From Sanderia malayensis (taxonomy: Eukaryota; Cnidaria; Scyphozoa; Semaeostomeae; Pelagiidae): a DNA stretch of 64,000 bases. The position numbers and the translations under genes were made by a program. The stretch is from assembly GCA_013076295.1 (NCBI GenBank), contig RQOL01000658.1:4409836-4473835 (forward strand), given 5' to 3'. Of this stretch, positions 26,280 to 49,805 are shown in pieces. Position 1 is the first letter of the stretch. Every line of letters begins with the position of its first letter. Under the pieces are notes generated by a model that saw only the letters and a program-made list of their open reading frames with translations, did not search any database and was not told the DNA's origin.

Positions 26280-26287
26280 TTAAAAAA
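26280..26287. repeat. Putative 8-bp target-site duplication, left (TTAAAAAA)
   Basis: TTAAAAAA directly precedes the left terminus GGC. The same eight bases follow the right terminus GCC at 49798-49805. The sequence is low in complexity, so chance cannot be excluded. Confidence 0.65.
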
Positions 26288-26876
26288 GGCAGGCCCTCGA
26301 TGGCTCAGGAACGAAAATTTCATATAGCGTTATACACATACACGCCTTAACACACCCATTTTCGTTCCATGAACCTCGTAGTGATACTGAGGTTCATGGA
26401 ACGAATAATCAATACGAGGTTCCTACAAACTTTGTATCAGTCTCGTATTGATACTGAAGAATGGGCTTGGCTTGGGCGGAACGTTACGTACGTAAAGTGC
26501 TTTTGCAGGCAGCATGCTTCTTGCTTGGCCTATGATGTGGCTTGTATCTATCGTCATCTTTGGGGGAGTTGAGACAAGTCTTTTGACAGCTGATAAGGAG
26601 TTTTATGAGCATGCAAGCAAGGACATCTGTGAAATTATAGGGGGTGAGAAAAATAAGAAGAAACAAGGACAGTAAGTATGGAATTCAATTGCGCATGGTT
26701 GTTGGTGAGTATTCGTGTGGCCCAGGGCTAGGGCAGGGCCATAAAGTTCTTATTCCATGGCAATGAGGAAATGTGGGAAATAGCATATAGGCAATGAAGT
26801 AAACTTGAAGTCTATATGACTATACCCATATTTAAATACATGGTATGGTGGGGAGTATGGAGAGATTATGTGAATA
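26288..26876 (+). repeat. Left terminal/subterminal inverted repeat
   Basis: This mirrors 49321-49797. Besides the terminal 31 bp, the matching blocks are GCATGCAAGCAAGGACATCT, AATAAGAAGAAACAAGGACA and GAGTATTCGTGTGGCCCAGG. A perfect 17-bp hairpin (26361-26377 with 26389-26405, TTCGTTCCATGAACCTC) lies inside. An open stretch around 26560-26672 reads ADKEFYEHASKDICEI, similar to the right-end copy; it may be a decayed exon. Confidence 0.8.
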
Positions 26877-28010
26877 GTGTGGAGAACGTGGACAGCGTGG
26901 AGAACGTGGACAGTGTGGAGAACGTGGAGAACGTGGACAGCGTGGAGAACGTGGACAGTGTGGAGAACGTGGACAGTGTGGAGAACGTGGACAGTGTGGA
27001 GAACGTGGACAGTGTGGAGAACGTGGACAGCGTGGAGAACGTGGACAGTGTGGAGAACGTGGACAGTGTGGAGAACGTGGACAGTGTGGAGAACGTGGAC
27101 AGTGTGGAGAACGTGGACAGGTGGAGAACGTGGACAGTGTGGAGAACGTGGACAGTGTGGAGAACGTGGACAGTGTGGAGAACGTGGACAGGTGGAGGGG
27201 AGTGTGGAGAACGTGGACAGTGTGGAGAACGTGGACAGCGTGGAGAACGTGGACAGTGTGGAGAACGTGGACAGTGTGGAGAACGTGGACAGTGTGGAGA
27301 ACGTGGACAGTGTGGAGAACGTGGACAGTGTGGAGAACGTGGACAGTGTGGAGAACGTGGACAGTGTGGAGAACGTGGACAGTGTGGAGAACGTGGACAG
27401 TGTGGAGAACGTGGACAGTGTGGAGAACGTGGACAGTGTGGAGAACGTGGACAGTGTGGAGAACGTGGACAGTGTGGAGAACGTGGACAGTGTGGAGAAC
27501 GTGGACAGTGTGGAGAACGTGGACAGTGTGGAGAACGTGGACAGTGTGGAGAACGTGGACAGTGTGGAGAACGTGGACAGTGTGGAGAACGTGGACAGTG
27601 GTGGAGAACGTGGACAGGTGGAGAACGTGGACAGTGTGGAGAACGTGGACAGTGTGGAGAACGTGGACAGTGTGGAGAACGTGGACAGTGTGGAGAACGT
27701 GGACAGTGTGGAGAACGTGGACAGTGTGGAGAACGTGGACAGCGTGGAGAACGTGGACAGTGTGGAGAACGTGGACAGTGTGGAGAACGTGGACAGTGTG
27801 GAGAACGTGGACAGTGTGGAGAACGTGGACAGTGTGGAGAACGTGGACAGTGTGGAGAACGTGGACAGTGTGGAGAACGTGGACAGTGTGGAGAACGTGG
27901 ACAGTGTGGAGAACGTGGGACAGTGTGGAGAACGTGGACAGTGTGGAGAACGTGGAGTGGAGAACGTGGACAGTGTGGAGAACGTGGACAGTGTGGAGAA
28001 CGTGGACAGT
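26877..28010 (+). repeat. 18-bp minisatellite, about 63 copies (left)
   Basis: The unit is GTGGACAGTGTGGAGAAC, nearly homogeneous, with a few T-to-C changes (AGCGTG) and a few short insertions or deletions (near 27120, 27195, 27600, 27919, 27956). Because 18 is a multiple of three, all three forward frames stay open for up to 400 codons, giving repeats such as VENVDS. I do not consider them genes. Confidence 0.97.
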
Positions 28011-28561
28011 GTCTATGCCTGGAATTTTCTCTTTGAATCTTTAACTATGCTTTACCAAGGTTTTCTTTTTTTGTCAGCTTGTTTTTAGGTGTTACTTTTT
28101 TGAGTTAAATATAGTTTCTGAAAAACATTTTAACTCTCTACTGGGTCTTTTATGAACTGTTTTTCATATCAGTATAGTTTTTATACATTACTTGCAATAA
28201 CAGCAATAGAGCTTGTATAAAATATTTTACTTTATTACATGATGGTTCTTCTTTACATTAAAACATGGTGCATTTGGTGATTTCAAGAAAAGTAAAAAGA
28301 ATTATGTTTCTGCGCATCTTTTGGGTTGCAAGGCCATAAGAAGGATGCAGCATTTATTTTGTTGGTGAAGACAAGCTTTTAAATCTGCTGTAATGAGTAA
28401 AAGCTTGATAGAATTCCAATAGAAATTTGGAAGTACAGAGGATATAACAAGACTGGTTTTTTCTGTTGTATTATTTTATTAATGATCTGTTTTCACTTTA
28501 TTCATCCGTACTATATTTGATCACTCTTATAGCCCTATTTATCTGTCTATCTATCCATCTA

Positions 28562-28592
<31 letters not shown>

Positions 28593-29339
28593 TCATTACG
28601 CTCCTCCGTCCTCAGCGGACACTGCGCGGTCTACTACAATTTCCATACGTGTGCTATGTATGCGATTTGTTCGTGGTCACTATATTTGATCACTATATTT
28701 TTGTGTCGTTGTTTCTTTCTTCTAAATAACTTTTATCTACCATCTTTGTTTACATTTATAACCTCGCTTTCATGTATCTCTCAAAGTGAGACTGTAACTT
28801 CTCCAGCTTTCTTTCTCACTCTTTTTTTCTGAATAATAAAAGTGTGTTTGTCCACTGTGTGAGTGTTACTTGTTTCATCCTGTGTCCTACTCGTACAGGC
28901 TATATATCCTATCTGTATGGTCCTACTGCATATAGTATATGATACTTTCCATTCTATGACATCTTGTATTTACCATTCTTCATGTATTTACTTTGTTCTG
29001 TAATCAAGGTAAGTTCATATTGTAACCTTGGTATTTGCATTATAGAATTACTATATCACAAAGCTTTTGTATGTATTCATTGTTACCAGTTATTTTCATT
29101 TCATCCCCAGACAATATTTATCAAATTTAACAGAAGACATAATACACATAATTTGGCCAAGAATAACTGAACAGTGGCTTACATAAAATAATAGAAATAA
29201 ATAAAAAGTAAAAAACTAGAGATTATAATAAAGTATTAAGTAATAAAGTAGTAATAGTAATAATAATAGTAAAGTAGTAATAAAGTAATAGTAATAAAGT
29301 AATATTATTTATTATAATAAATAATAAAGTATTTTGGTT
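28011..29339. other. AT-rich transposon interior without a gene
   Basis: Contains a CTAT microsatellite (28540-28593) and a run of AATAAAGTA-like simple repeats (29215-29335). No coding exon is recognised. Confidence 0.6.
28540..28593 (+). repeat. (CTAT)n microsatellite
   Basis: About twelve CTAT units, with two interruptions. Confidence 0.92.
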
Positions 29340-32300
29340 TTAGTTTTTTGTTATTTTTCTTTTCCTTGTCAGGCTCGTTGGTTGAAAATTTTTTGAAAGG
29401 CAATCTTCCAACTTTTCACACGGATCTATAAAGTAAGATACGACAAAATATTGTAATACTGCCTTTTACTGATTTTTCCCTGTGTCACTAATAGCAACAG
29501 CTGAACAAATTATAAGTTTTCATACCTTTTTGCTTCCTTCGTTGTTGTCTGATTCCCTCAGTGCTATCATCTGAAATAGGTTAATAAGAGTTTGAAAAAA
29601 CTGTTGGTTTTACAGAATTCAGGTGTTAAGGGCAATAGCATTGATTTTTCTTTCATAGTTACCTTTATCTTTATTTTCTGTTTCTTTTCTGTCATTAGAC
29701 TCCTCAATAAGAATGTCTTCAGCATCAACATCATCAATATCATCATCAGTATCATCATCTTCCTCATAACTTTGCTGGTCTTCATCTTGAGATTCAGTTT
29801 CTGTGAAAAATATGAGGTAAAAATATTGCATCTGTTCTACATGTTTTCACAGCTTGCCACCAGCTACTTTTTAGAGACTTTTTAGAAACTGTTTAATGCG
29901 AATGTATGCTATGTAATGAATACTGAGCTTACCGATATCTGAAATATAATATACTGCATTGTGCTGAATGCCTGCTGTTATGTGAACAACAGCACTGCCT
30001 CCTATGAGCAGGGGGGAATGGTCAACTTTTGAAGCACAGACATCCATGCCATCTTCTTTTACCAGGCGTTTTATTATACAAAACCTCTGTGTTTCCAACT
30101 GGAAACGTTTGGTTGACCTTCCAATTGTTATTGAAACAACAGCATCTTCGGCAGTTTTATTTTCAATTTTCAGTTTTGTGTTGTATTGATCATCTGTGTG
30201 GGAAGCATTGATGTACTTGAGTATGATAATTTTAGAATTATGCATCTGATTAGAAATAATTTAAGTGATGGCAACAATGAAATACTGAGTTCCCCAGATC
30301 TGTCGATTGACATACAGGAAACCCAATTTTACAACAGAAAAATATAGGCTTTGTTATAGGCTTTATATCTACCAGTCATTTGCATTCCTAATCTTCTCAT
30401 GCACTCTCCATAGCCCTATGATGGGAAAAATGCATGATAATAACAAATCTAGCAAACAACAAAAGTTTTCAAATGGTCCAAAATTTTATCAGGTATATGG
30501 AAGCAAAGTAGCATATATAAATTGAATGAAAATAATATAATTGCCATGAAATTGGTCTTACTTTTTCATAATATGACTTCATTTGAGGATTCCCTTTCAA
30601 ATAGTCTCTTAATGGAGAAGATTCAAGAACCTGTAAAAAATTTAAGATCTAATTATAGATTCAGAAATGAGAAAACATTGAAAACTTGTTTGCATTATAA
30701 ATACTCACTGTCAGAAGGTGAGCTGACATACTATTGTCTGTGTCGTTTCTCCACATTATTTGTCTTTTTTTACCTATAGGAGAGGGTTTAACACATTCAA
30801 TCATTTATTCAGGAGTTGAAATATATCAATAAATTACTTGCCAATGAGGAAATATAGCGGAACTATAATGAAAAAGGCATTTCATTATCTTAACAAAGAG
30901 TATGTAATAAGTATGAAACTTGCTATCAATCTCACTTTCAATATAACTCTGCATTTTTGCTGTTATTGTAGTTTCAGTTTTTGCTAACTCTTCGCAATGT
31001 TCTCTGCTGAGACCAAATGTTCTTTCTGGCTCTTCCAGATCCCTTTCAACCCTTGGACCCTCAGGTAATCCACAAACTAGTAAAAATACAATTGAAAAAC
31101 TTGTCAATGACACAATTTCCTTAATGTGATGTTCAAACAATATTAATTAGTTTTAGGTTGCAAACCTATCAGCATATCAAGTCTTGAGAAGATTATAACA
31201 ACTGACAGGTTATGTATGTGATCTTGGTTTTTGGATTGTTGTACTTTTCAGTTAAGTTTTTCATTTTTAATAAAGCTAAATGGATCCATTTTGTGGTTAC
31301 AATTATTGGCAGGATTAGCTTGAGATATTTTTAATAGTAATTAAATGCTCACCTTCTCTGATTTTTATCATTACCGTAGGAGAAAGTTTTGAATGAGGAA
31401 TCTTGTTAGCTGGAAGAAAATATAGCATCTATCAAATAACAGATTCATTTCAGTCTGGGTTTTCAATTGTTTCAGAGAAGGATTCTCAACCTTTCATTCC
31501 CATTTTCATATCATCATTTCTTCTGTGTAAGTATAACATGAATTTAACCTGGAGAACTCAGGATACACAACTTCTATTTTGACCTACCTCTGCAATTCTT
31601 TGTTTTTTCTTTTTTTGAAAGATCTGCATAATGGGCAGGGCCCTGTTTGCAAAATATTACTGATGCCTGAAAGGCTGCCACTCCCCCAGCTTCCAACTTT
31701 TTATGTATTTCCTAGAACAATATAACAAATTTTAATATCCTCTCCCTTAATCAAATCGATCAAAGTATAGGTCATATTGATAGGCACTGAAACATGTACA
31801 AACCATGTGTGAAGCATTTGAAATGCGGTTAAACACATTCACAGCTATTGCAATTGATTGAATCTTTCTTTTGGCACTGTCGCGGAAATAGGTGGACGGG
31901 TTCAACCATGTCAAGACCTAGGCGTAGTTAGAACATTGTAAATTATCTGCACACACAAAATTCTGCCACCAGCATACACATGTAAGTAGCCTTTTTATGC
32001 AAAAGTGGTTTTCTGTATCTTGTAGAACAAAAATTTAGTTGTAAACTTACCTCGCTTTCTTCTGTGTCTTCAATTTCTTTTAATATACTAGCTCCAAGCT
32101 CTTCAAAGAATGTGTCGTCATTTTTTGTTGCAGCAACCCGTTGGAAAACGATCGACTTGACCGCTTCTCCCAGACCGATTTCTTTTCCCGCAGAAGCAGC
32201 AAGCTATGAACAAGAAAATATATGGAGAGTTGTCTATCGGTATCATAAAAATGAAGAGAATGTAAATACTGCCTTGTATCCATTTCTAACTGAGCTTTGT

Positions 32301-34882
32301 CAGTTTTCTAACACACCCAAGTTAATGACGCGACAAGCAAGTAAGTAATCACATATCAAGAAAGGGAGAATTTTATTACAATTTAAAATAAGCGTACCAT
32401 GCAGTAAGTCGCAAGAGTTGATGACATTCCGGATGTCCACCGTCTCTGCGTTGTGTTTGGCAGCTCATCCCTTATAATGTTATTTATGGTATCCGATATT
32501 CTTTTTTTTGATGCTTTCCAAAATTCGCCGAAGTGAACTGCCCAAGCAATAAGGTAACCCTGAATCAAAAAACACTGAATCTTATTAATCATGTTTGGTG
32601 ATCCGATATTGAGGATTTGCCACAAGCGAATGGCCACAAGTTTAGTTTTTCTGCATTGAGGTTAGTTTGTTTCACCCACAGTCATATTATTCGCATAAGA
32701 AATTTAGATTACCTTGTTCATTTGGGCTGTTGGTTGCAGTTCCATTTTCAAAATGTCTTCTTCGGACTTCGTGAAGCTCGCGTCCCATTTAAAATAGAAT
32801 GTCAACGTGCGTCCATCAATTCTGTGAACAAACGAAGAGAACAATGGAGACACTAAGCTTAAAATGGATAATTCATGTAAGTACACTGGGTAAATCTTCA
32901 TTACTCTTTCAATGCAAGGTCAATTGTATTGTACATCAATTATATTACCTTTCTGTGACACCACTATTCGAAGTGCTCAGCACTTTCGCTCTCGATTTTG
33001 AGAGACCACTTGTGCACGAGCCTTGCAGATACCCGTCGTGCGCTTGTAAAATGAACTCTGTCATGGTGTTGCTATTTGTTGCTTCATTTATGAAGCAAAC
33101 CATGTTGCTGCAAGACAGAGATTCTTGGATTCGTTTGCTACAAGAATGGAAGGAATTATTTAAATAGGGTTTGCGAAGATCATGGAATTTGAAAGTAAAC
33201 TTATTTTGGACCGATGCACACTTACGGAGTTGTGCCACTTTGCATCGAATCTCCTCCAGAAAGGAACATTGGGTGGCAATAATCGTCGGGTGCACCGATT
33301 CCTGATGCCAGAATTTCAAGGCATTTTGATTTGCCAACGTTCTGGCGACCACACATAATCATCGCATGGCTTGTTTCATCTACAAAAACGAAGACAATGA
33401 ACTTGGGTGGTTTAAATAAACCTGAATTTTAGTAAAAAGAAAAATTGGAATGAGATATCGAAAAGACATTTCCGTAAAGCTTAATTCATAAATTAATAAT
33501 ATAAGGACAGATAATTGACAGACATAAGCTCAATTCCTACCGGTTGAATCTTGTTCAAACATTTTTCTTAACAGCTGTGTCAGGGTGAATGCCATAGCCA
33601 TCAGCATCGGCTCTCTGTTGTCACAGAAGCAACAACTCAAGCTTACAATCCTGTTGGCAATGAAAACTACATTAATATTTCATCATATGTGAATACAACA
33701 TAAATTGCTATTTGTTGAAATTTGTCAGATTCGCAAAACTCAATGGATACTCATAATTAAAGTGTAAAATATTGACAAGCAGTGTAAATCTTCTTTATAC
33801 AGGGCGCTATCAGATAAAAGGATCAATTTATACTTACATTTTGATCACCTCAAGGAAGTTGGAAAAACTGCCGATCAGGTTTTTATTGATCGCAACAGAC
33901 ATTGCTTTGACGTTGTTGTCGATGATGACGTATTCACGTTCATCTTCTCGCAGAAGTCGTCCATTTTTTATTTGTTGCTGGAAAGTAAATAAGAAACGTT
34001 AATTTTGTCACAAATAGTAACGAGTAGTATTCTATGATATAATGTGCAGGTATTGTACTTTGCTGAAGAAGTAGCACACCATTCTTCCTTGTAATATTGC
34101 AATAGCTCTGAGTTCTTATTTGGTCACTCTTATCAGTTAAAAGTTATCGGCTATAATATAAATATACAGGTACTTACTGTTTCCGACAGGACCCAATAGT
34201 CCGGGTCATAAAATCCAATAAATGGAGCATTTTGGCAGCTTCTTTCCATGCCATGCACGACATAGTCGTGTTTAAGATATCGCAGATATTCGGAAAGATC
34301 TGCGGCTTTAATGTCACCAGCCACATTGAAGAGCCCGCGACCAAACTTTTTTCTAATTGTTGTTTCAAATTTTGTTCGACTGTCCAAGAAGCTGGCTGGT
34401 AGTGCAGTCGTCCTGTCGTGAGAAAGACGCATGTCAAGAGAAAAAATAACTTGCAGGGCCTCACAAGGTTCTTGATTTAAACTTTCTGTTGTACTATTGG
34501 TGAAGCCAGGCTTCATATGTTAAAATGTGGATTGTCTATATGTTTCTTTTAAAAACAATACCTGCTGCCACTTTTGCATGTTATTTTCGCCAGCCAATGG
34601 CCTTCTTTTTCCTCATAGTCGTCACCAGCGATGCTTCCCAGTAGTTTTACTTGAAAGTCGCAAAAGTGCTTTTCCTCTGCACCGGGTTTTCGTCGGAACC
34701 ATGTTTCGCCTTGCCTTTCTATAAATTTGCCGTCGTAGCAAAACTCAACATGGTCTGCCTTAAATGCGATGAGAAAGCATCAGTTAAGAATCCAGTTCCT
34801 TCAATCAGGGACTCATGATCATAATATTATTTATTACATCAGTATTACTTACCTGGTGTTCCGGTACGCTTTCTTCTGCCAT
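29340..34882 (-). CDS. P-loop (AAA+/SF3-like) ATPase, 19 exons, transposon-borne
   Basis: Exons in order on the minus strand: 34853-34882, 34562-34758, 34178-34493, 33838-33977, 33541-33650, 33226-33379, 32949-33107, 32713-32821, 32398-32559, 32051-32203, 31588-31711, 31353-31409, 30936-31076, 30709-30773, 30562-30630, 29933-30245, 29663-29800, 29526-29570, 29340-29425. All junctions keep phase, giving 855 codons, so the gene is intact. Residues 275-282 are a Walker A motif (GRQNVGKS), 318-324 a Walker B-like MVCFINE, and N363 in LSTSN fits sensor 1. This resembles DUF927/SF3-like ATPases known from mobile DNA. The exon at 29663-29800 is very acidic and the C-terminus basic (RKRKITKN). AATAAA lies just after the stop (29318-29323). 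It is transcribed away from the transposase gene, with which it may work. The molecular function is inferred from the motifs only. Confidence 0.82.
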
Positions 34883-35849
34883 CTTCGAAATTTTTTGGTT
34901 TCTTTGATCAGGTTTGTGTCCTGCAGATGCAAATTTCAAATGTGAAGATATGGCGCTTTATTGCTTATTTATAGTAACTGGACTTCCTTTGCAATTTACC
35001 ATCCAAGAATGTCTGGAAGACAATGTGAAGTATATCATAAAATATAGAAATAATGAAGTTAACAACTATATATGTTCCCGCAAGTGTGTATCGGCCTTTA
35101 TTACGACATTGACTAACTGGGGTTCTCGCAAAATATAAAACAATGAGATTGATAGCTTTATGCACCTCGGGGAGCATTACTACAGTCAAAGAGCACCCCG
35201 AAATGGTGGGCAATGTTTCGCGTTGCTTTTGATCGCCAAACAGCTTATTTCCCTTGTGCAAATAGATCTGCAATTTCTGTGGAGCAAGACCACAGGTAAA
35301 GAAGTGCTTTGAAGATAGCCACTTTACACCATGATTTCAAAACAACAATTAATCACAATCCAGACCGACCAAACGTTGCTAAAGTTCTCACTAAACAAAA
35401 TATTTCCATGGGTTTTTTCTACGCCCTAACAGCTTAGTTATTTCCTGCAGTGGGGAAATATATTTACACTTCGGAACATGTTGTTTACAACGTGTGTTCT
35501 GTCCCTTCGTCCGCTAAAAATGTAGCGCAATTTGGATGCAAATCCTATTAACCATATGTAAAGCAGATAAAGTAATATTTGGTCGATCACAGATTGCATA
35601 CATATTCCCTTGTTTACAGATCATTACTTATAGATCTTGTCAAAACCTGAAGGCAATTGTGTTTTTTGACTTTGGGTAACGCTGTTAACTAGACTTCAAA
35701 CAAATTTCAAATTGAAAGCATAGCTTTCTGGGCGTTGATTTTTCCCACGTGAGCGAGTTCAGTGTGTGACTCACCTCTCTCCTATGAGGCCATACACTCT
35801 TAATCTTTTTGTTCAGCAATTGAAGTCGTTCTAATCAAAGGTTATCTGT
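34883..35849. other. 5' flank of the ATPase gene
   Basis: Non-coding stretch between the ATPase start codon and the 505-bp satellite; the ATPase promoter should lie here. I see no defined element. Confidence 0.4.
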
Positions 35850-38800
35850 AAAACGGCTTTGAATCGGTATTGTTTCATTTGTTAAGTTTATTCACACACC
35901 AATTTCTGTGTTTGACAAAACTTCATCCCGTGACAAAAGCATCAATTCTGCAACAACTTTGCGTGTTTTTATGTATGAATGAATTTAGTTTAAAAATGAC
36001 TATATTCTCTTATATACGCAAGAGAATGATAGACAAATATAATTGATGTTTGCTACATAAAGACTAAATGGCGCACATGTTCTTCCACAGGGTAAAACAA
36101 AACAGAATAAAGACAACAAGTAATATCGTCACGAATTAGGGGTATATTTTAGATTCGCTTCCTTCGTATCCACGGCTTCCCAATTTCTGCCCTTATTTTT
36201 TTCACACGTAAACTGAAGATGAAACCGCTCTTTGTATTATGTCCGCTACAGTAGAATACATGCTCTTTTATGAGAGGCCTGTTTATAAGAAGTCTAGTAC
36301 TAAGCACCCACAAATTTTAAAAACTATTGTTTCTTCATTCAAACCATACTGATTAAAACGGCTTTGAATCGGTATTGTTTCATTTGTTAAGTTTATTCAC
36401 ACACCAATTTCTGTGTTTGACAAAACTTCATCCCGTGACAAAAGCATCAATTCTGCAACAACTTTGCGTGTTTTTATGTATGAATGAATTTAGTTTAAAA
36501 ATGACTATATTCTCTTATATACGCAAGAGAATGATAGACAAATATAATTGATGTTTGCTACATAAAGACTAAATGGCGCACATGTTCTTCCACAGGGTAA
36601 AACAAAACAGAATAAAGACAACAAGTAATATCGTCACGAATTAGGGGTATATTTTAAATTCACTTCCTTCGTATCCACGGCTTCCCAATTTCTGCCCTTA
36701 TTTTTTTCACACGTAAACTGAAGATGAAACCGCTCTTTGTATTATGTCCGCTACAGTAGAATACATGCTCTTTTATGAGAGGCCTGTTTATAAGAAGTCT
36801 AGTACTGAGCACCCACAAATTTTAAAAACTATTGTTTCTTCATTCAAACCATACTGATTAAAACGGCTTTGAATCGGTATTGTTTCATTTGTTAAGTTTA
36901 TTCACACACCAATTTCTGTGTTTGACAAAACTTCATCCCGTGACAAAAGCATCAATTCTGCAACAACTTTGCGTGTTTTTATGTATGAATGAATTTAGTT
37001 TAAAAATGACTATATTCTCTTATATACGCAAGAGAATGATAGACAAATATAATTGATGTTTGCTACATAAAGACTAAATGGCGCACATGTTCTTCCACAG
37101 GGTAAAACAAAACAGAATAAAGACAACAAGTAATATCGTCACGAATTAGGGGTATATTTTAGATTCGCTTCCTTCGTATCCACGGCTTCCCAATTTCTGC
37201 CCTTATTTTTTTCACACATAAACTGAAGATGAAACCGCTCTTTGTATTATGTCCGCTACAGTAGAATACATGCTCTTTTATGAGAGGCCTGTTTATAAGA
37301 AGTCTAGTACTAAGCACCCACAAATTTTAAAAACTATTGTTTCTTCATTCAAACCATACTGATTAAAACGGCTTTGAATCGGTATTGTTTCATTTGTTAA
37401 GTTTATTCACACACCAATTTCTGTGTTTGACAAAACTTCATCCCGTGACAAAAGCATCAATTCTGCAACAACTTTGCGTGTTTTTATGTATGAATGAATT
37501 TAGTTTAAAAATGACTATATTCTCTTATATACGCAAGAGAATGATAGACAAATATAATTGATGTTTGCTACATAAAGACTAAATGGCGCACATGTTCTTC
37601 CACAGGGTAAAACAAAACAGAATAAAGACAACTAACAAGTAATATCGTCACGAATTAGGGGTATATTTTAGATTCACTTCCTTCGTATCCACGGCTTCCC
37701 AATTTCTGCCCTTATTTTTTTCACACGTAAACTGAAGATGAAACCGCTCTTTGTATTATGTCCGCTACAGTAGAATACATGCTCTTTTATGAGAGGCCTG
37801 TTTATAAGAAGTCTAGTACTGAGCACCCACAAATTTTAAAAACTATTGTTTCTTCATTCAAACCATACTGATTAAAACGGCTTTGAATCGGTATTGTTTC
37901 ATTTGTTAAGTTTATTCACACACCAATTTCTGTGTTTGACAAAACTTCATCCCGTGACAAAAGCATCAATTCTGCAACAACTTTGCGTGTTTTTATGTAT
38001 GAATGAATTTAGTTTAAAAATGACTATATTCTCTTATATACGCAAGAGAACGATAGACAAATATAATTGATGTTTGCTACATAAAGACTAAATGGCGCAC
38101 ATGTTCTTCCACAGGGTAAAACAAAACAGAATAAAGACAACAAGTAATATCGTCACGAATTAGGGGTATATTTTAGATTCGCTTCCTTCGTATCCACGGC
38201 TTCCCAATTTCTGCCCTTATTTTTTTCACACATAAACTGAAGATGAAACCGCTCTTTGTATTATGTCCGCTACAGTAGAATACATGCTCTTTTATGAGAG
38301 GCCTGTTTATAAGAAGTCTAGTACTAAGCACCCACAAATTTTAAAAACTATTGTTTCTTCATTCAAACCATACTGATTAAAACGGCTTTGAATCGGTATT
38401 GTTTCATTTGTTAAGTTTATTCACACACCAATTTCTGTGTTTGACAAAACTTCATCCCGTGACAAAAGCATCAATTCTGCAACAACTTTGCGTGTTTTTA
38501 TGTATGAATGAATTTAGTTTAAAAATGACTATATTCTCTTATATACGCAAGAGAATGATAGACAAATATAATTGATGTTTGCTACATAAAGACTAAATGG
38601 CGCACATGTTCTTCCACAGGGTAAAACAAAACAGAATAAAGACAACTAACAAGTAATATCGTCACGAATTAGGGGTATATTTTAGATTCACTTCCTTCGT
38701 ATCCACGGCTTCCCAATTTCTGCCCTTATTTTTTTCACACGTAAACTGAAGATGAAACCGCTCTTTGTATTATGTCCGCTACAGTAGAATACATGCTCTT

Positions 38801-39421
38801 TTATGAGAGGCCTGTTTATAAGAAGTCTAGTACTGAGCACCCACAAATTTTAAAAACTATTGTTTCTTCATTCAAACCATACTGATTAAAACGGCTTTGA
38901 ATCGGTATTGTTTCATTTGTTAAGTTTATTCACACACCAATTTCTGTGTTTGACAAAACTTCATCCCGTGACAAAAGCATCAATTCTGCAACAACTTTGC
39001 GTGTTTTTATGTATGAATGAATTTAGTTTAAAAATGACTATATTCTCTTATATACGCAAGAGAACGATAGACAAATATAATTGATGTTTGCTACATAAAG
39101 ACTAAATGGCGCACATGTTCTTCCACAGGGTAAAACAAAACAGAATAAAGACAACTAACAAGTAATATCGTCACGAATTAGGGGTATATTTTAAATTCAC
39201 TTCCTTCGTATCCACGGCTTCCCAATTTCTGCCCTTATTTTTTTCACACGTAAACTGAAGATGAAACCGCTCTTTGTATTATGTCCGCTACAGTAGAATA
39301 CATGCTCTTTTATGAGAGGCCTGTTTATAAGAAGTCTAGTACTAAGCACCCACAAATTTTAAAAACTATTGTTTCTTCATTCAAACCATACTGGTTAAAA
39401 CGGCTTTGAATCGGTATTGTT
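35850..39421 (+). repeat. 505-bp satellite, seven copies plus a fragment
   Basis: Units start with AAAACGGCTTTGAATCGG at 35850, 36355, 36860, 37365, 37874, 38379, 38888 and 39397. The spacing is 505 bp, or 509 bp where an extra CTAA is present in GACAACTAACAAG. Copies are nearly identical, differing at a few sites such as TTTTAGATTCGC against TTTTAAATTCAC. Each unit has a small hairpin, ATTCTCTT...AAGAGAAT. No coding frame. The array lies between the two divergent genes, ending about 120 bp before the transposase ATG. Confidence 0.97.
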
Positions 39422-39545
39422 TCGTTATATGCGAAGGGGTTTTTTGAGCCTTTTGTGCACGCGTTTGAATGAACGAACATGACCACACCACATCACTTTC
39501 CTGTCATTTTTATCCACGCAAATTAGGGTATATCTCACAATCAAC

Positions 39546-42500
39546 ATGAATTCAACCATAGCGTTTTGCTTTATTTTAATAGCTTCTTTCACTAACCTAG
39601 AAGCCATTGATATACCAAAAAGTTGGCAAAATTTGATTATAGCCACCACATCGAAATTCGAAATGTTCATTGGTTGTGGCTCTTATTGCATCATACGGAG
39701 AACTCAAGTTATGCAATATGACTGTCGGGAAATGGATACATATTTTTGTCCACCTATTGTTCTTTGGGACCCATGTTTTAACTATGTCAGGAAATTCAAA
39801 CGCCCTGTCATGTGTCCTGACCATTTCAAAATTCTGGAGCCCACTGGGCAATGGATGAACAGTAGCTCAAATTCACGCACGCCAAGAGCTGTCTGGAGCG
39901 CAGAAGGGTTGCATTTATTGGTTGCAAGAGAATACATTTGTCCTGGAACTGTGTTCGAAGAAAGCCATAGAATCCGGACAACGGACAGCAGGCTGATAGA
40001 CATTATTGGTAAGGATACATGTGATATTCTTTTTTCAAGAAAATGCTCTTTCTTTAAAATGGTCTTATCGGCAATGATGGATGATGTTTCTCGGGGGGCT
40101 TCGTTTTGTCACATTGAGCAAAAAATGAGACAGAGACAGTTAGATTTTGTATCTTTGTGCGAACAAGAACTATGTGATGATTTGGCAATGGGAATTATGC
40201 ATCTCAACCTGGAAATCGACATAAATGGGAGAGTAAAGGAGCTACAGCAACTTTTGACTGGTTGTGTGCCAGACAGTGAGACTATCAGAAGAACGTTTGT
40301 CTGCTGGTGTAATATCTATCGAAAAGAAATGGAATCGTGCATGCAAAGAACAGAGGCTACAGCTCTAATGGCTGATCATACGTTTAAGGTATGTTGAAAT
40401 TTTGGGTAGCTTGAGTCGTTCGCTCCTTTGTTGAAGGTTGTTGCGATTTAATCGATCATAGTTTTTATTATTTGCTGTTCTGCTAAAATTCCAACCAAGC
40501 ATTCAAACCTGAGTTGATAATGCACGAGAACGTATTTATCTGTCATGCATTTGGGCTCCGGTAGCTAAAATTTGCAATTTGTGATGACAGCACACGATTT
40601 CTTATTTAATGGTGTCTTATCAAGACAGTGCTGTGTTGAAGTTAGAATACATTTACCTTTGTTTTAGGTTTCAGTGAATATCGGTGTCCATCAGGAAGCA
40701 GATTCAAAATGGCTAAGATTATTTAATTCTTTATTTATCGTTATGAACGAAAATAAGGAGGTTCTTACGTGGCAACTCACTAAACGCGAAAAATTCAATG
40801 TTGTTTCAGACATGCTAATGAACTTGAAAAATAGAATGGACAAGTCTCCTACCAGGTTACAGTATTTTGTCATAGATAATTGTTGCAAATGGGAAAACAA
40901 AATAAAGGAGCTTTTCGGCCAAAACGTAAAAGTAAAGTTGGACTTGTTTCATGCCCTCCAAAGACTGACCAGAACTTTAGAGAAATCAAACCCATACCAA
41001 AACAGGATTTGCCAAGATTTGCGCTCTATTTTTCGGCAAGAGGGTGATAGTAGACAATTTCGTACAATGGCTACTCCAACAGCAGAAGTCATCGAGCAAA
41101 AGCTTTTAACGATTTTGAATAGTTGGGAATCAGTGCAAGCGCTATTAGATGGAAAGTCAATTATAAATACAAAATTTAAGAAAGCTGTTGAAAATCTGTT
41201 GATTCACATAAGAAAGGGGTGCTTGTCTGACATTCCAGTGGGCTTAGCAACAGGGATGAACGAAAACTTACATAAAAATTTGAATAAAGTATTTAAAGGT
41301 TTGAAAATGGGACCAGAACTGGCAGTAAGTCTTTTGACAATGTTTTTTTATATTTGGAACGGAAGAAGAATTTGCCAAGAAGGAAAACGTTGTTACAAAA
41401 GTATATTTGCGCTAAAGTCTTCTTCATTTAATGAAACTCATAATGAAAAAGAAAAGTTCGGTATCGGTATTTCAAGCGAAAAAATCACTTTTGACCTACC
41501 GTTGACTGAGTATGGAGATGATAGTTCTGTAAAGACTATCAATTTCACATTGATGAAAAGAAAAATATTCGTGTTCAAAAAACTTAACAGTATGTCTTGG
41601 TTAGAAAAAATTCCACAAGAATTGTTTTTTGCTGAAATTATTGTATTTAAATTGTTGCAAATGAGACAACCTTTTGTATGTCAATCCGAATTACAGCACG
41701 GTGAAGCTTTAAAATCTCGATGCAAAAACTTTGGTTATTTTCCTATTGCAAGCCTTCCTATTTCGATCGATGATGAAAACAAACTTTTAACTGTTTCTAC
41801 TTTAACAATTGGAAATTTTATGAAAGAAAATGAATATTTCAGCGGCGTTACATCGCATTTAAAATCTATTGGCTTTACATCAGATGCAAACAAAGACTTT
41901 TCAATGCTAAAAATAATTGTACAGGAGGACTTAAAGATGCAATACCGAAACCTACACGATTTAAACACAAATTCCTTAAAAAGGCAAAGACTAGGAAATA
42001 TCTCGTCTAACAAAATCTCCTGTATGAAACCTGAGTTTACCGATATTATTATTCAAACGATTTCAAATTTAGTTCAATTACCTATTGTTGTCTTTACATC
42101 AATTCCGAATATTCCGATACTGCCAATCATTCCTGAAAATCGCATGATCACAACAGATTGTCTTTTCATGGCCATCAACTTTTCTGGAAAAGTAAGCTTC
42201 GAGTTGCTGAGCAAAGATCTATTAGTGCTGCAAAATAAAGATAAGAAAGATGTAAGCAGTCGAAAAGGTTGCATGTGTGGGAAAAATGACAAAAATCGTC
42301 TTCCGAAATGTACGATGGTCGAAGGTTCCAAGTACTCCTGCAAATGCCCATGCTTTAAGTTTCAACAGTCATGTGCGAACTGCAATTGCAAAGGCTGCAT
42401 GAATCCCTTTGGAATATCGAAAGGCAACGGACCTAAACGTAAAATTGAAAGCAGCAAAGCCAAAGCTGCATTGACACACCTCAGACCATGTGCAAAGAAA

Positions 42501-42830
42501 GGAAGCCAGTTTTTGAAAGACGAAGGCGAACCGAGTACCTCTACAAGATGGAACATCGATGAAACGATATTGCTTCTGAGCTTAATGGAAGAATTTGGTG
42601 GAGCTGGAGACAATGTTAACATTTGCAAATTATTCTGTAAGATAGCTAGAGCTAATACGGACTCGAGTCTTCTGATAGAAGAAAAAAGTCAAAGACAAGT
42701 GGAAGGAAAATTGCGTAACTTGAAAGAATTACAGCAAATCTGGTATTCTCAGGTGTATATTGCAATGGAACAGCCTGCAGCGTCGGTCGCAAGTATGGAT
42801 GTGCATACATCTACAGAAAACAACATCTAA
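39546..42830 (+). CDS. DDE-like transposase with CXC and Myb-like domains
   Basis: Two exons, 39546-40388 and 40668-42830, join in phase (AAG|GTATGT...TTTTAG|GTT) to give 1,001 residues. The N-terminal part has scattered Cys (VMCPDHFKI, VAREYICPG), probably zinc-binding. Candidate catalytic residues are D277 (MADHTFK), D351 in FVIDNCC or D373 in KLDLFHALQR, and E480 in GLATGMNENLHKNLN. A Cys-rich block at 815-863 (SCKCPCF, CANCNCKGCMNPFG) resembles the tesmin/TSO1 CXC DNA-binding domain. It is followed by a Myb/SANT-like helix region (about 908-970, RWNIDETILLLSLMEEFG). The length and layout are like those of large eukaryotic transposases, but I cannot place it in a named superfamily. The first 20 residues look like a signal peptide, odd for a nuclear protein; acceptor-like AG sites at 39582 and 39600 suggest the real first exon may lie upstream. 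Confidence 0.82.
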
Positions 42831-43670
42831 CTCTAGAGTATACAATTGTGTGGTTTACGGGTTAATTAACTTTTTATTATTGTAATTCAGCATGATCTCG
42901 CAGTTAGGAAACAGTCTTTTTAGAATGGACGCCATTGTTTACGATGATTTCCAATTGTTTTCTGTTAATTTGAGAATAACAACTATGTTTTTCACAAAAA
43001 GTTTCAATAAGGTTACGTTATTATGTCATGTCGTTCCAATTGGACACACAACTCAGAACATAGTCACGAGAAGTTTCTTACTTGCGGGACCCAAAAGTAA
43101 TTCATTAGTTTTATTTTGCAATAGCTTTAATTATCTTATGACTTTTAATATCTTGCAAGTAATGAGATATAGTTTTAAAACATGCAATCTAATATTCGTT
43201 ATAATATTTATTAGCTCCAAGAAAGGATTGAATATATAACATTACGAGCTACAAACAAATCCTCAATGGCCTTTATATAACAATTTTTAACAGCATTTCT
43301 GGTTATAATTTCTTACAGCATTCATTTAATACAAAATTACATTTTTATACTTATTGCCCGATTAGTAGTTACAATATTGTAACCATTTTTCTGCATTACT
43401 TGATGTCAGAACTATTCTAGCCTAGCCTTTTAGTGGCGATTACATGTAGATATGTTTTTAACAGTTGTTCGTTTACTAAATGAAGAGTGATTAACACAAT
43501 ACGTAATATATCTCAGTATTATAGCAGTAGGCTCTTTTGTTGTAATAATTGAGGAGTTGAAATGAGTTCATCAATTCAACAATGTCTTCCCTTATTTAAA
43601 TGTTCCTTCAATTTCTGTCGTTCTTATTGGCCGTTCTAACATTGGTTTTCACCCAAACAAGTAAAAAGAA
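42831..43670. other. Transposase 3' flank, no gene seen
   Basis: AT-rich DNA. The open frame at 42892-43239 has low-complexity, hydrophobic content and no recognisable domain. Confidence 0.5.
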
Positions 43671-46266
43671 GGGTAGTGCTACAGAGAAGGTAAGTGGTTC
43701 AAGATGGTCTGAATGAAATATCGAATAAATAGAATGAAAGAATGAAATTAGCACCTCTTTCATCATCTGCTGCAATAGCGTGAGGTAGTGCCATGGGGTT
43801 GCAACGGAGAAGGTAATGGTTCAAGATGCGGTTCTGTAAGGTGAATTTTAATATTTTCAAGCTAATTAAATAGTTAGGATGAATAAGAATGAAATTAGCA
43901 CCTCTTTCATCATCTGCTGCAATAGCGTGGAGGTAGTGCCATGGGGTGTGCAACAGAGAAGGTAAGTGGTTCAAGATGCGGTTCTGTACGGATGAATTTT
44001 AATATTTTTCAAGCTAATTAAATAGTTAGGATGAAATAAGAATGAAATTAGCACCTCTTTCATCATCTGCTGCAATAGCGTGGAGGTAGTGCCATGGGGT
44101 TTGCAACGGAGAAGGTAAATGGTTCAAGATGCGGTTCTGTAAGGCTGAATTTTAATACTTTTCAAGCTAATTAAATAGTTAGGATGAATTAAGAATGAAA
44201 TTAGCACCTCTTTCATCATCTGCTGCAATAGCGTGGAGGTAGTGCCATGGGTTTGCAACGGAGAAGGTAATGGTTCAAGATGCGGTTCTGTAAGGCTGAA
44301 TTTTAATACTTTTCAAGCTAATTAAATAGTTAGGATGAATTAAGAATGAAATTAGCACCTCTTTCATCATCTGCTGCAATAGCGTGGAGGTAGTGCCATG
44401 GGGTGTGCAACAGAGAAGGTAAGTGGTTCAAGATGCGGTTCTGTACGGATGAATTTTAATATTTTTCAAGCTAATTAAATAGTTAGGATGAAATAAGAAT
44501 GAAATTAGCACCTCTTTCATCATCTGCTGCAATAGCGTGGAGGTAGTGCCATGGGGTTTGCAACGGAGAAGGTAAATGGTTCAAGATGCGGTTCTGTAAG
44601 GCTGAATTTTAATACTTTTCAAGCTAATTAAATAGTTAGGATGAATTAAGAATGAAATTAGCACCTCTTTCATCATCTGCTGCAATAGCGTGGAGGTAGT
44701 GCCATGGGGTGTGCAACAGAGAAGGTAAGTGGTTCAAGATGCGGTTCTGTACGGATGAATTTTAATATTTTTCAAGCTAATTAAATAGTTAGGATGAAAT
44801 AAGAATGAAATTAGCACCTCTTTCATCATCTGCTGCAATAGCGTGGAGGTAGTGCCATGGGGTTTGCAACGGAGAAGGTAAATGGTTCAAGATGCGGTTC
44901 TGTAAGGCTGAATTTTAATACTTTTCAAGCTAATTAAATAGTTAGGATGAATTAAGAATGAAATTAGCACCTCTTTCATCATCTGCTGCAATAGCGTGGA
45001 GGTAGTGCCATGGGTTGTGCAACAGAGAAGGTAAGTGTTTCAAGATGCGGTTCTGTAAGGCTGAATTTTAATACTTTTCAAGCTAATTAAATAGTTAGGA
45101 TGAATTAAGAATGAAATTAGCACCTCTTTCATCATCTGCTGCAATAGCGTGGAGGTAGTGCCATGGGGTGTGCAACGGAGAAGGTAAGTGGTTCAAGATG
45201 CGGTTTTGTAAGGCTGAATTTTAATACTTTTCAAGCTAATTAAATAGTTAGGATGAATTAAGAATGAAATTAGCACCTCTTTCATCATCTGCTGCAATAG
45301 CGTGGAGGTAGTGCCATGGGGTGTGCAACGGAGAAGGTAAGTGGTTCAAGATGCGACTCTGTACGGATGAATTTTAATACTTTTCAAGCTAATTAAATAG
45401 TTAGGATGAAATAAGAATGAAATTAGCACCTCTTTCATTATCTGCTGCAATAGCGTGGAGGTAGTGCCATGGGTTGTGCAACAGAGAAGGTAAGTGTTTC
45501 AAGATGCGGTTCTGTAAGGCTGAATTTTAATACTTTTCAAGCTAATTAAATAGTTAGGATGAATTAAGAATGAAATTAGCACCTCTTTCATCATCTGCTG
45601 CAATAGCGTGGAGGTAGTGCCATGGGTTGTGCAACAGAGAAGGTAAGTGGTTCAAGATGCGACTCTGTACGGATGAATTTTAATACTTTTCAAGCTAATT
45701 AAATAGTTAGGATGAAATAAGAATGAAATTAGCACCTCTTTCATCATCTGCTGCAATAGCGTGGAGGTAGTGCCATGGGTTGTGCAACAGAGAAGGTAAG
45801 TGTTTCAAGATGCGGTTCTGTAAGGCTGAATTTTAATACTTTTCAAGCTAATTAAATAGTTAGGATGAATTAAGAATGAAATTAGCACCTCTTTCATCAT
45901 CTGCTGCAATAGCGTGGAGGTAGTGCCATGGGGTGTGCAACGGAGAAGGTAAGTGGTTCAAGATGCGACTCTGTACGGATGAATTTTCATACTTTTCAAG
46001 CTAATTAAATAGTTAGGATAAAATAAGAATGAAATTAGCACCTCTTTCATCATCTGCTGCAATAGCGTGGAGGTAGTGCCATGGGGTGTGCAACGGAGAA
46101 GGTAAGTGGTTCAAGATGCGACTCTGTACGGATGAATTTTCATACTTTTCAAGCTAATTAAATAGTTAGGATAAAATAAGAATGAAATTAGCACCTCTTT
46201 CATCATCTGTTGCAGTGGCGTAGAGGTAGTGCCATTGGGTGTGCAACAGAGAAGGTAAGTGGTTGG
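43671..46266 (+). repeat. 153-bp satellite, 17 copies, forward orientation
   Basis: Landmark GAATGAAATTAGCACCTC occurs at 43740, 43887, 44040, 44193, 44344, 44497, 44650, 44803, 44956, 45109, 45262, 45415, 45568, 45721, 45874, 46027 and 46180. Every unit contains GCAATAGCGTGGAGGTAGTG and GAGAAGGTAA(G/A)TG. Variant bases alternate along the array, which points to duplication of two- or three-unit blocks. No coding frame. Confidence 0.97.
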
Positions 46267-46836
46267 GTATGAAGTGAAGGTAAGTCAATTTACATTGGTA
46301 TAAGCATAATTCTCATTTATCCATGATTACTCTGATATCTAAATGTTTAACTTACTTTCGATCATTCTCGCGTAAAGTAAATGGTAAGTTATCGCAAAAA
46401 CACAACAAAGACAGGTTGAAGACCAAGGGAGGCATGGCGCACGTGGTTGAATTGAGCAAGGGGACGTTGCTCGATGCGTGAAAATCAAGGGGAGGATAAA
46501 TTCCTTCTGCGTTTTCTCTAGAGGTGTTTTCTTGTAACAAAAAGTTGATCCGCCTCCCCTTAGATTTTTATGCGCCAGCGTATGACCCCTTGCAAGTAAG
46601 GCCATTTGCGCGATGTCCCATTACTGTTATGCGCCTCTATCACTATGTTTCTAGTCTAATATCAGCGTTCTGGTAGATAAACTGTTCCTAACTATTTTTC
46701 TGGCTCGAACCTCTTCTTACTACGCAATCCGACAACTAAACTTCACTCTCTATCATCACTTATCTAATTTATCTAATCTATTTAATTATTTATTTTATGG
46801 TAGTCAGTGCAGCTAACATTATATATCAACTTAAAT
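46267..46836. other. Spacer between the opposed 153-bp arrays
   Basis: Unique DNA of about 570 bp. A minus-strand frame of 88 codons (46339-46605) has no recognisable features. Confidence 0.5.
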
Positions 46837-47704
46837 GACTTACCTGGCTCTTGAACCACTTACCTGGTCGGTGCACACCCCGTAGCACTACCTCCACGCT
46901 ACTGCAACCGATGATCGAAATGATGCAACTGTCAATGTAATTCCATTCTAAATGCTTCAGTTGATTTAAATGTAATAAATTCGTTTCTCAAGTAATGCAA
47001 TTTGCACCACTTACCTTGTTGGTTACCCTCCCCGTAGCACTACCTCCACGCTACTGCAACCGATGATCGAAATGATGCAAATGTCAATGTCATTCCATTC
47101 TAAATGCTTCAGTTGATTTAAATGTAATAAATTCATTTCTCAAGTAGCGCATTTTGCACCACTTACCTTGTTGGTTACCCTCCCCGTAGCACTACCTCCA
47201 CGCTACTGCAACCGATGATCGAAATGATGCAACTGTCAATGTAATTCCATTCTAAATGCTTCAGTTGATTTAAATGTAATAAATTCATTTTTCAAGTAAT
47301 GCAATTTGCACCACTTACCTCCTCCGTTGCACACCCCATGGCACTACCTCTACGCTATTGCAACAGATGATGAAAGAGGTGCTAATTTTATTGTAAGTAT
47401 TTAATTAGCTTGAAAAGTATTAAAATTCATCCGTACAGAAGCGCATCTTGAACCACTTACCTTCTCTGTTACACACCCATGGCACTACCTCCACGCTATT
47501 GCAGCAGATGATGAAAGAGGTGCTAATTTTATTCTAAGTATTTAATTAGCTTGAAAAGTATTAAAATTCATCCGTACAGAAGCGCATCTTGAACCACTTA
47601 CCTTCTCTGTTACACACCCATGGCACTACCTCTACGCTATTGCAACAGATGATAAAAGAGGTGCTAATTTCATTCTTCATTTCATTCTAATTATTTAATT
47701 AGCC
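46837..47704 (-). repeat. 153-bp satellite in reverse orientation, about six copies
   Basis: Reverse complement of the array at 43671-46266. The three copies nearest the spacer belong to a diverged subtype (CTACTGCAACCGATGATCG); the outer three match the main type. With the forward array it forms a long inverted repeat around a 570-bp spacer. Confidence 0.93.
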
Positions 47705-48563
47705 TAAATTTCACTTGATAAAATACGTTCCATCTCGTGCTAGTAGTATTGAAAATTACATGTTGATAACCTGATAAATAAGAACTTGGACGCTGTTGAA
47801 TAGTTCACTAACTTGAAGTAATGGTTCCAAAAAATAAGCTCCTATAGAGCTAATCACAATCTGGCCGCCATGTAACAGCGTTATTTTTTAAATTACAAAT
47901 GTATAGCTCATGTATTAACATCACTGTAATATAAAGTACCATTTTATAATAGAATAAAAGTGAAGTGAGTTCAATTCATTTTCAGTGGTAACATATCTTC
48001 GCTACCTTATTAAAAAATAAATGGTCTCATGTTTATGCAGATTTACCAACAAATTTAACAGCAGAATGGTAGAAAATACATCAATATAAAAAAACACATA
48101 GGTGAACAACAAATAGAAAAGCTCTGAACAAAGCTCTTAAGCCATAGAGCATGAATTTTCAAAACGTACAATAATTTACACTTACAAAAAATAACTATGA
48201 AAATAGTTATTTTTTGTAAGTGTATGTAAGTGTATTTTGTAATAATTATAAAATCTGCACTAAAGCACCAAATAGATTGTAGCGTCTATTACATCTTTGC
48301 ATCAGGAAAATATGCTATCTGTTATACTTTTATAAGAAACCTCAGTTCGGAAAAAACATATTAAGGATGTTTCAAAACATCTTCAATGTTTTCCAAGGGC
48401 ATACTTAATACTGGCATTACTCTTACATAAGATAGAAAATTTGTTAATTGGTTTTAATTACCAACCATACCACAAACCAGGTAATTGTGAAAAACTTAAG
48501 ACTTTTGATTATTGTGCCCCAATGGTCTCTGCTGCTACATTGTTTAAGGCATGCATATATCTA
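47705..48563. other. Transposon interior, no gene; perfect hairpin at 48177-48224
   Basis: No gene is seen. Bases 48177-48198 (TACACTTACAAAAAATAACT...) and 48203-48224 are perfect 22-bp inverted repeats with a 4-base loop. Confidence 0.8.
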
Positions 48564-49314
48564 TGTTCTCCACACTGTCCACGTTCTCCTCACTGTCCAC
48601 GTTCTCCACACTGTCCACGTTCTCCACACTGTCCACATTCTCCACACTGTCCACGTTCTCCACGCTGTCCACGTTCTCCACGCTGTCCACGTTCTCCACA
48701 CTGTCCACGTTCTCCACACAGTCCACGTTCTCCACACTGTCCATGTTCTCCACGTTGTCCACGTTCTCCACACTGTCCACGTTTTCCATGTTGTCCACAT
48801 TCTCCACACTGTCCACGTTTTCCATGTTGTCCACATTCTCCACACTGTCCACGCTCTCCACCCTGTCCACGTTCTCCACACTGTCCGCGTTCTCCACACT
48901 GTCCACATTCTCCACACTGTCCACGTTCTCCACACTGTCCACGTTCTCCACACTGTCCACGTTCTCCACACTGTCCACGTTCTCCACACTGTCCACATTC
49001 TCCACACTGTCCACGTTCTCCACACTGTCCACGTTCTCCACACTGTCCACGTTCTCCACGCTGTCCACGTTCTCCATGCTGTCAACGTTCTCCACACAGT
49101 CCACGTTCTCCACACTGTCCATGTTCTCCACGTTGTCCACGTTCTCCACACTGTCCACGTTTTCCATGTTGTCCACATTCTCCACACTGTCCACGCTCTC
49201 CACCCTGTCCACGTTCTCCACGCTCTCCACACTGTCCACGTTGTCCACGTTCTCCACACTGTCCACGTTCTCCATGCTGTCCACGTTCTCCACGCTCTCC
49301 ACACTGTCCACGTT
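48564..49314 (-). repeat. 18-bp minisatellite, about 42 copies (right, inverted)
   Basis: Same unit as the left minisatellite on the opposite strand (GTTCTCCACACTGTCCAC on plus). It is more diverged than the left array, with many single-base variants and some 9- or 12-bp deletions, and contains an internal duplication (about 48721-48850 resembles about 49090-49200). Confidence 0.97.
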
Positions 49315-49797
49315 ACTCCATTGCCTATATGCTATGATATTCCCCACATTTCCACATTGCCATGGAAAAATAAGAACTTTAAAGGCCCAGGGCCTGGGCC
49401 ACACGAATACTCACCAACCCTGTCCTTGTTTCTTCTTATTTTGTATTCTATCTTAATTTCATAGATGTCCTTGCTTGCATGCCCATAGAACTTCTTGTTA
49501 CCTCCGCAAGCAAAATAGATTCCAGAACTCAACTCACCACCAGTCCGTGGCAAACATGTTGTTGTCATCTCCCATATTATGACAGGTGTCCACGACGTTC
49601 CACTGATATTGTGGATATTTAGGTTAATGATCGCAAAATAATGGAAGTAGTGCGAATGAAAACGTGTGAAAGGAATACTGGCCATGTGTTTATAAGATAG
49701 GCTCAGGTTCTCGCTGGCGCTTAGGCCATATGCGCATACGCGTGAAAGATTGGCAGAGGTTCGCGCATTTTCGTGCCTGAGCCATCGAGGAATAGCC
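49315..49797 (-). repeat. Right terminal/subterminal inverted repeat
   Basis: Mirror of the left end. A minus-strand open frame (49332-49892) runs through it and includes GGNKKFYGHASKDIYEI, matching the left-end KEFYEHASKDICEI. The frame begins beyond the element's terminus, so it is not a single intact gene of the element. Confidence 0.8.
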
Positions 49798-49805
49798 TTA
49801 AAAAA
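49798..49805. repeat. Putative 8-bp target-site duplication, right (TTAAAAAA)
   Basis: Direct repeat of 26280-26287, immediately outside the right terminus GCC. Confidence 0.65.

Follow-up and report, generated by a model that had tools for sequence, protein, structure and literature searches.

The window analyzed here is a stretch of 64,000 nucleotides from the scyphozoan Sanderia malayensis (assembly GCA_013076295.1, contig RQOL01000658.1, positions 4,409,836 to 4,473,835 of the forward strand). Its positions 26288–49797 are a mobile DNA transposon of 23,510 bp with GGC...GCC ends, both of which contain CCTCGATGGCTCAGG. The left terminus begins GGCAGGCCCTCGATGGCTCAGG at 26288 and the right terminus begins GGCTATTCCTCGATGGCTCAGG, on the minus strand, at 49797. 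Inspection of these ends delimited two terminal inverted repeats, GGCAGGCCCTCGATGGCTCAGGaACGAAAAT at 26288–26318 (plus strand) and GGCTATTCCTCGATGGCTCAGGcACGAAAAT at 49767–49797 (minus strand). They are short (31 bp) and imperfect, and are accompanied by subterminal inverted repeats and arrays. The element is bordered by exact 8-bp target-site duplications TTAAAAAA at 26280–26287 and 49798–49805, a length also confirmed at other insertions. A previous interpretation made from the letters alone (the sequence-only reading) had proposed a transposon at 26280–49805, with inverted GGC ends sharing CCTCGATGGCTCAGG and flanked by TTAAAAAA. This range corresponds to the element plus its two duplications, both of which were recovered as exact copies. 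That reading had also placed the insertion between CLEC16A and AP4E1. The left host flank is indeed CLEC16A (Pfam FPL and CLEC16A_C); the right one gives a weak Adaptin_N match (E = 0.0013, below the Pfam cut-off) that is consistent with AP4E1.

The mirror-image subterminal blocks described previously are real. Two inverted repeats 71% identical to each other lie at 26595–26787 (plus strand) and 49333–49496 (minus strand). Internal to them, tandem-repeat analysis revealed two minisatellites of 18-bp period in opposite orientation, with 64 units of AGTGTGGAGAACGTGGAC at 26876–28012 (plus strand) and 41 units of GTTCTCCACACTGTCCAC at 48565–49302 (minus strand), the right array being the mirror image of the left one. 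Two genes are arranged head to head: gene 2 at 29340–34882 on the minus strand and the transposase gene on the plus strand, with tandem repeats of 505/509-bp period between them (35836–39434). Beyond the transposase gene lie 16.6 copies of a 153-bp tandem repeat (43738–46264) and tandem repeats of 152/141 bp (46851–47676), which match the 153-bp array on the other strand and are therefore in opposite orientation. Transposase exon 1 (39546–40388, plus strand; the EukProt model starts at 39663) ends just past a catalytic D codon (40374–40376), and exon 2 spans 40668–42830 (plus strand). The gene is open across GT-AG splice sites and matches EukProt gene model P0001. Gene 2 was modeled with 21 exons and GT-AG introns, and encodes 887 amino acids without internal stop. 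It matches EukProt model P0004 with 92% identity, some exon choices being different; P0004 and P0001 are consecutively numbered. Both gene models are stop-free. The proposal of a very large DNA transposon that encodes a DDE transposase and carries another gene of many exons is supported.

Allowing one mismatch at most, the 15-mer CCTCGATGGCTCAGG occurs at 16 places in the 184-Mb genome, and the reversed-pattern control at none. According to their inspection, 12 are element ends with GGC, including the two of the window, and two (C829 and C478) are element ends that no longer carry GGC. The places on C155 and C781 were ruled out as element ends: they adjoin telomere-like repeats and are unrelated. 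Left ends with flanks different from those of the window were identified at C902:70122, C902:21917, C5/C303, C469, and C809, and right ends at C289, C303 (two), and C714. Copies with the same termini in other surroundings, which the sequence-only reading had asked for, thus exist, none of them being assembled end to end. These ends are not all independent: those at C5 and C303:8009 are one sequence (identical across 3,015 bp), and the left ends at C469 and C809 agree to 93% along a 2.1-kb stretch that includes the flank. The right ends C303:4053191 and C303:5151827 have about 120 bp of outside flank in common (88% identity), which may reflect the same repeat target or a joint duplication. The copy at C902:70122–84332 occupies a third site and is cut off by the end of its contig. 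Aligned with the window over 9,174 columns, it shows 99.7% identity, with a lower value in the arrays (97.5% for the initial 2,326 columns). We infer from the 99.7% identity a recent movement of the element. In this copy one gene 2 codon is a stop and the transposase match contains stops. The window transposase is the only complete open copy found in its family, the remaining ones being partial or stop-bearing.

A second insertion allowed us to reconstruct an empty site. CGAGCAGG precedes the left end at C902:21917, and its reverse complement, CCTGCTCG, precedes the right end at C289:204701. We joined these two flanks around a single CCTGCTCG (292 bases, junction at base 150) and searched the genome. 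Among 38 matches, 35, which are dispersed repeat copies, are unbroken across the junction; the other three are the two flanks themselves and one match beyond the repeat. Four of the loci were read directly, and the sequence was uninterrupted in each. The element therefore inserted once into this dispersed repeat, and the 8 bp duplicated there are not of low complexity. Perfect 8-bp duplications were thus observed in both window-family insertions with two readable sides. Low-complexity flanks and minisatellites might have imitated a transposon, a concern raised by the sequence-only reading, and TTAAAAAA is indeed low-complexity and the arrays are simple repeats. This artefact is refuted by the CCTGCTCG duplication with its empty site and by the duplications at 12 of the 14 end pairs read in the sister family described below, and its probability is negligible. 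The empty allele sought at the window's own site was not detected in the assembly, where the search returned just the two flanks; the empty site was seen at another copy instead. We also noticed a 100% match to the C902:21917 flank beyond the disrupted repeat at C155:3172946–3173063, possibly a second copy or a repeat-less allele. Furthermore, the contigs break at the identical element base (window 42153/42154) at C902:84332 and C289:212573, which suggests that a chimeric contig was split in the assembly. C902:70122 and C289 were rejected as parts of one copy: their flanks show no matching duplication, whereas those of C902:21917 and C289:204701 match.

A genome search with the transposase revealed a relative at C352, with 36% identity in the initial 234 residues encoded by exon 2 and 28% across 475 alignment columns when the longer model is used. 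This relative belongs to a 13.8-kb element (C352:40414–54237; loci L081, L026, and L082) that starts with GGCTAAGACTTC, has the inverted end GGCAAGGACTTC, and is flanked by a perfect 8-bp duplication, TTTCCGCA. It carries mirror-image arrays of 18-bp period with 95 and 97 units, whose sequence is unlike that of the window arrays. The N-terminal part of its transposase matches DUF6729 above the cut-off, a domain on which we found no literature. Its 147-base terminus has at least 41 matches in the genome; 39 of them, both C352 ends among these, start precisely at its first base. Identical 8-mers flank 11 of 13 further convergent end pairs, or 12 of 14 with C352; the pairs C859:289550/292436 and C478:3055346/3057815 lack them. 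This count leaves out C569, where both ends have the same orientation, and the convergent pair C405:4012161/4019890. As a control, the first ten pairs gave no off-diagonal 8-mer match in 90 comparisons. Both families have their GGCA end 5' of the transposase gene and their GGCT end 3' of it. Judged from these sequences, the sister family confirms a transposition mechanism with 8-bp duplication. On the minus strand of C352:46900–50500, ORF (open reading frame) pieces with a P-loop (GHQVSGKS) might represent a second gene of the sister element. Their homology with gene 2 was supported neither by phmmer nor by tblastn nor by shuffled alignment (best z 3.0).

The second exon of the window transposase contains a catalytic D (40875–40877), a DxxH motif (40941–40952), a catalytic E (41262–41264), a region with an OTU-like fold (approximately 41679–42221), and a CXC region (approximately 42258–42410). 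The D-D-E and DxxH residues are conserved across its relatives. The predicted fold matches best ISCth4 (PDB 6xgx, 6xg8, and 6xgw), which we take to be an IS256 family member, with 11% identity; the solved ISCth4 chains differ in being about 400 residues long and in lacking the OTU and CXC regions. The OTU catalytic residues are kept in most relatives. The window copy has other residues where the alignment places the Cys and His, and its OTU part is probably just structural. The comparison with Pfam proposed by the sequence-only reading names no family for the transposase: in P0001, Transposase_mut (PF00872) scores 13.2 bits against a cut-off of 21. No hAT model is among the three families reported for P0001 (E up to 3; the HMMER filters drop most weak matches). 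Scanning IMG/VR with the transposase alignment returned 37 stretches with the pattern, none of them related, and a viral fold library gave no match at E of 0.001 or better. A long relative, L029 (C616:3751264–3754959), has an open stretch of 1,136 amino acids. Its alignment suggests altered residues at the DxxH and E sites, and it could be a domesticated gene. Another gene model, P0003 (EukProt gene1580-1745_t), fuses Pfam PF14223 and PF22936, presumably retrotransposon gag/pol-like domains, to a short piece 90% identical to the window transposase.

Gene 2 accompanies the element elsewhere. It has matches at C902, C5, C849, C655, and three places of C303. It occurs together with transposase pieces at C303:4.05–4.08 Mb, C303:5.13–5.15 Mb, and C849, and with a left end at C655 and C5, in each case arranged and mainly oriented as in the window. 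The C655 locus is apparently rearranged: one exon matches on the opposite strand, and the first exons are repeated. The ratio of nonsynonymous to synonymous substitution rates (dN/dS) is 0.35 against the copy at C303:4.07 Mb (630 codons, six stops dropped) and 0.62 against that at C303:46 kb (752 codons, four stops dropped). Since both C303 copies are broken, neutral decay inflates these values, and the 0.35 suggests past purifying selection on gene 2. We therefore read gene 2, given this ratio and its recurrence with transposase pieces and left ends, as part of the element, and its role is likely accessory to the transposon. By eye, the protein shows a P-loop (GRQNVGKS) followed by FINEA and LSTSN, an order that to us resembles superfamily 3 (SF3) helicases and is without profile support.

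Taken together, these data make it highly probable that the 23.5-kb element belongs to a multi-site transposon family that generates 8-bp duplications and moves, likely by cut-and-paste, with the DDE transposase that it encodes, an enzyme with a predicted fold nearest to that of the IS256-type ISCth4. The transposase would bind both the terminal repeats and the subterminal arrays of 18-bp units, perhaps via the CXC or the N-terminal region. It would then cleave at the GGC ends and join them over an 8-bp stagger. The gene 2 product would probably act as an ATPase- or helicase-like accessory that helps an element of this size to move or to be maintained. In relatives that keep its catalytic residues, the OTU part would oppose host ubiquitin signalling.

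Several points weigh against this interpretation. The cut-and-paste mode is likely, and is read from sequence rather than from observed excision or transposition. Pfam MULE (PF10551, for Mutator-like elements) and Transposase_mut each match one of 56 relatives below the cut-offs (E about 0.04; 0.039 for MULE), so that the IS256/Mutator placement rests on the predicted fold. Terminal inverted repeats of Mutator elements usually, not universally, measure hundreds of bp; those of the window element are imperfect and 31 bp long, with subterminal inverted repeats and arrays next to them, and may set it apart from typical Mutator elements. Both duplications are readable at only two window-family insertions. 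Apart from the window element, the family has no copy that the assembly spans from one terminus to the other, and the further transposase copies found are all partial or, as assembled, interrupted by stops or frame shifts. For gene 2, searches gave no significant match in Pfam, PHROGs, or PDB, no relative beyond the genome's own model, and no detectable counterpart in the C352 element. This isolation, its many introns, and the stop in one near-identical copy would fit a captured host gene traveling as a passenger and not as a working transposon part. We find this rather unlikely in view of its dN/dS of 0.35 against one diverged copy and of its recurrence in diverged copies, three with transposase pieces and two with the left end, in the order of the window.

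Placement of the transposase near the IS256/Mutator branch is supported by the ISCth4-like fold predicted for it, its DDE and DxxH motifs, and the 8-bp duplications. Mutator elements and MULEs are recognized by duplications of 8–11 bp, found here as 8 bp in both readable window-family insertions and in 12 of 14 sister-family pairs; by a DDE domain with C/DxxH after the second D, which is present; and by an IS256-like fold, which is predicted. The C/DxxH motif is shared by hAT, P, and Kolobok and hence not specific, according to PMC3706591. In another paper, MULEs are described as having 8–11 bp duplications, second ORFs, and, in some groups, minisatellites, and a table row lists the Repbase element MuDR-6_HM as a cnidarian MULE with an "Ovarian Tumour Gene" (PMC6446971). 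MuDR-6_HM is the closest printed lead, the likeness being that of its table description. The element might thus be a deep clade of ordinary MULEs, perhaps of the MuDR-6_HM group; the type would then be known and the family new, with a different name and the same mechanism. We hold the chances of this to be about even. The IS256-like fold predicted for the transposase fits it, as do the duplication length, the second ORF, the OTU-bearing cnidarian group, and the minisatellites reported for Rehavkus and the aphid Phantom. The weak MULE score speaks against it, and so does the lack of FLYWCH, SWIM, and PHD finger among the 25 of 43 families listed for the 56 relatives. The short ends with paired 18-bp arrays and the CXC region also set the window element apart. 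Rehavkus, Phantom, and Tm1, which are MULE/Foldback types, resemble it in having minisatellites or tandem repeats within or near their ends. They differ by their duplications (9 bp, 8–10 bp, and mostly 9 bp, respectively), by a single ORF (one or two in Phantom), and, for the transposase-bearing Tm1 element, by a size of 2.6 kb. The claim of a "possibly undescribed type" therefore holds only in part: Pfam names no family, whereas fold, motifs, and duplications are close to IS256/Mutator and an OTU-bearing MuDR-6_HM is already listed in that table (PMC6446971). The element likely works like an IS256/Mutator cut-and-paste element; it may or may not belong to MULE, Pfam matches to that family staying below the cut-off.

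Other assignments fit less well. Zisupton and Dileera generate 8-bp duplications and Zisupton is multi-exonic, so that a Zisupton or other KDZ element would share the duplication length and the large multi-exon transposase. The KDZ domain PF18758 is absent from the three families of P0001 and from the 25 of 43 listed for the 56 relatives, and none of its 140 genome matches (E up to 1, best 7e-17) falls on the transposase loci studied, which makes this assignment very improbable. These 140 matches indicate that the host genome carries many true KDZ elements. ISL3 elements also make 8-bp duplications. This candidate was dropped: DDE_Tnp_ISL3 matches three of 56 relatives (E up to 3, best 0.0063) and not P0001, and its genome search gave no match at E of 0.001 or better. 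Polintons/Mavericks are very large DNA transposons as well. Unlike them, the window element showed no DNA polymerase B or capsid in the eight ORFs scanned, gene 2, and the transposase, ORFs at 43–48 kb lying outside the scan. Teratorn is comparable in its great size. It differs in that no polymerase, capsid, or herpesvirus family was detected in the ORFs scanned here, and in that targets are not TTAA-specific, CCTGCTCG and the sister-family duplications lacking the TTAA of piggyBac/Teratorn. Among titles and opening lines of abstracts, with most subscription papers and Repbase outside the search, none describes this transposon family. A tentative and rather doubtful view would make it a separate superfamily of giant eukaryotic cut-and-paste elements. 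It would combine a transposase of IS256 fold fused to OTU and CXC regions, GGC ends, 8-bp duplications, paired 18-bp minisatellite arrays serving as assembly platforms, and its own AAA+/SF3-like ATPase, reminiscent of bacterial transposons that pair a DDE transposase with an ATPase helper.

To our knowledge, only a few DNA transposons of such great size have two open genes. A near-identical copy elsewhere, an empty site provable for the family, and a sister family of many copies make this one testable in cells. Its orphan gene 2 poses the question whether ATPases assist transposons in eukaryotes. A transposase with a deubiquitinase-like module would make a possible strategy of host evasion testable. 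The transposase profile found 128 proteins, and just three of the 120 listed bear any name (two "hypothetical," one "uncharacterized"); hence, many of the genes that are labeled uncharacterized or OTU-containing may in fact be transposons.

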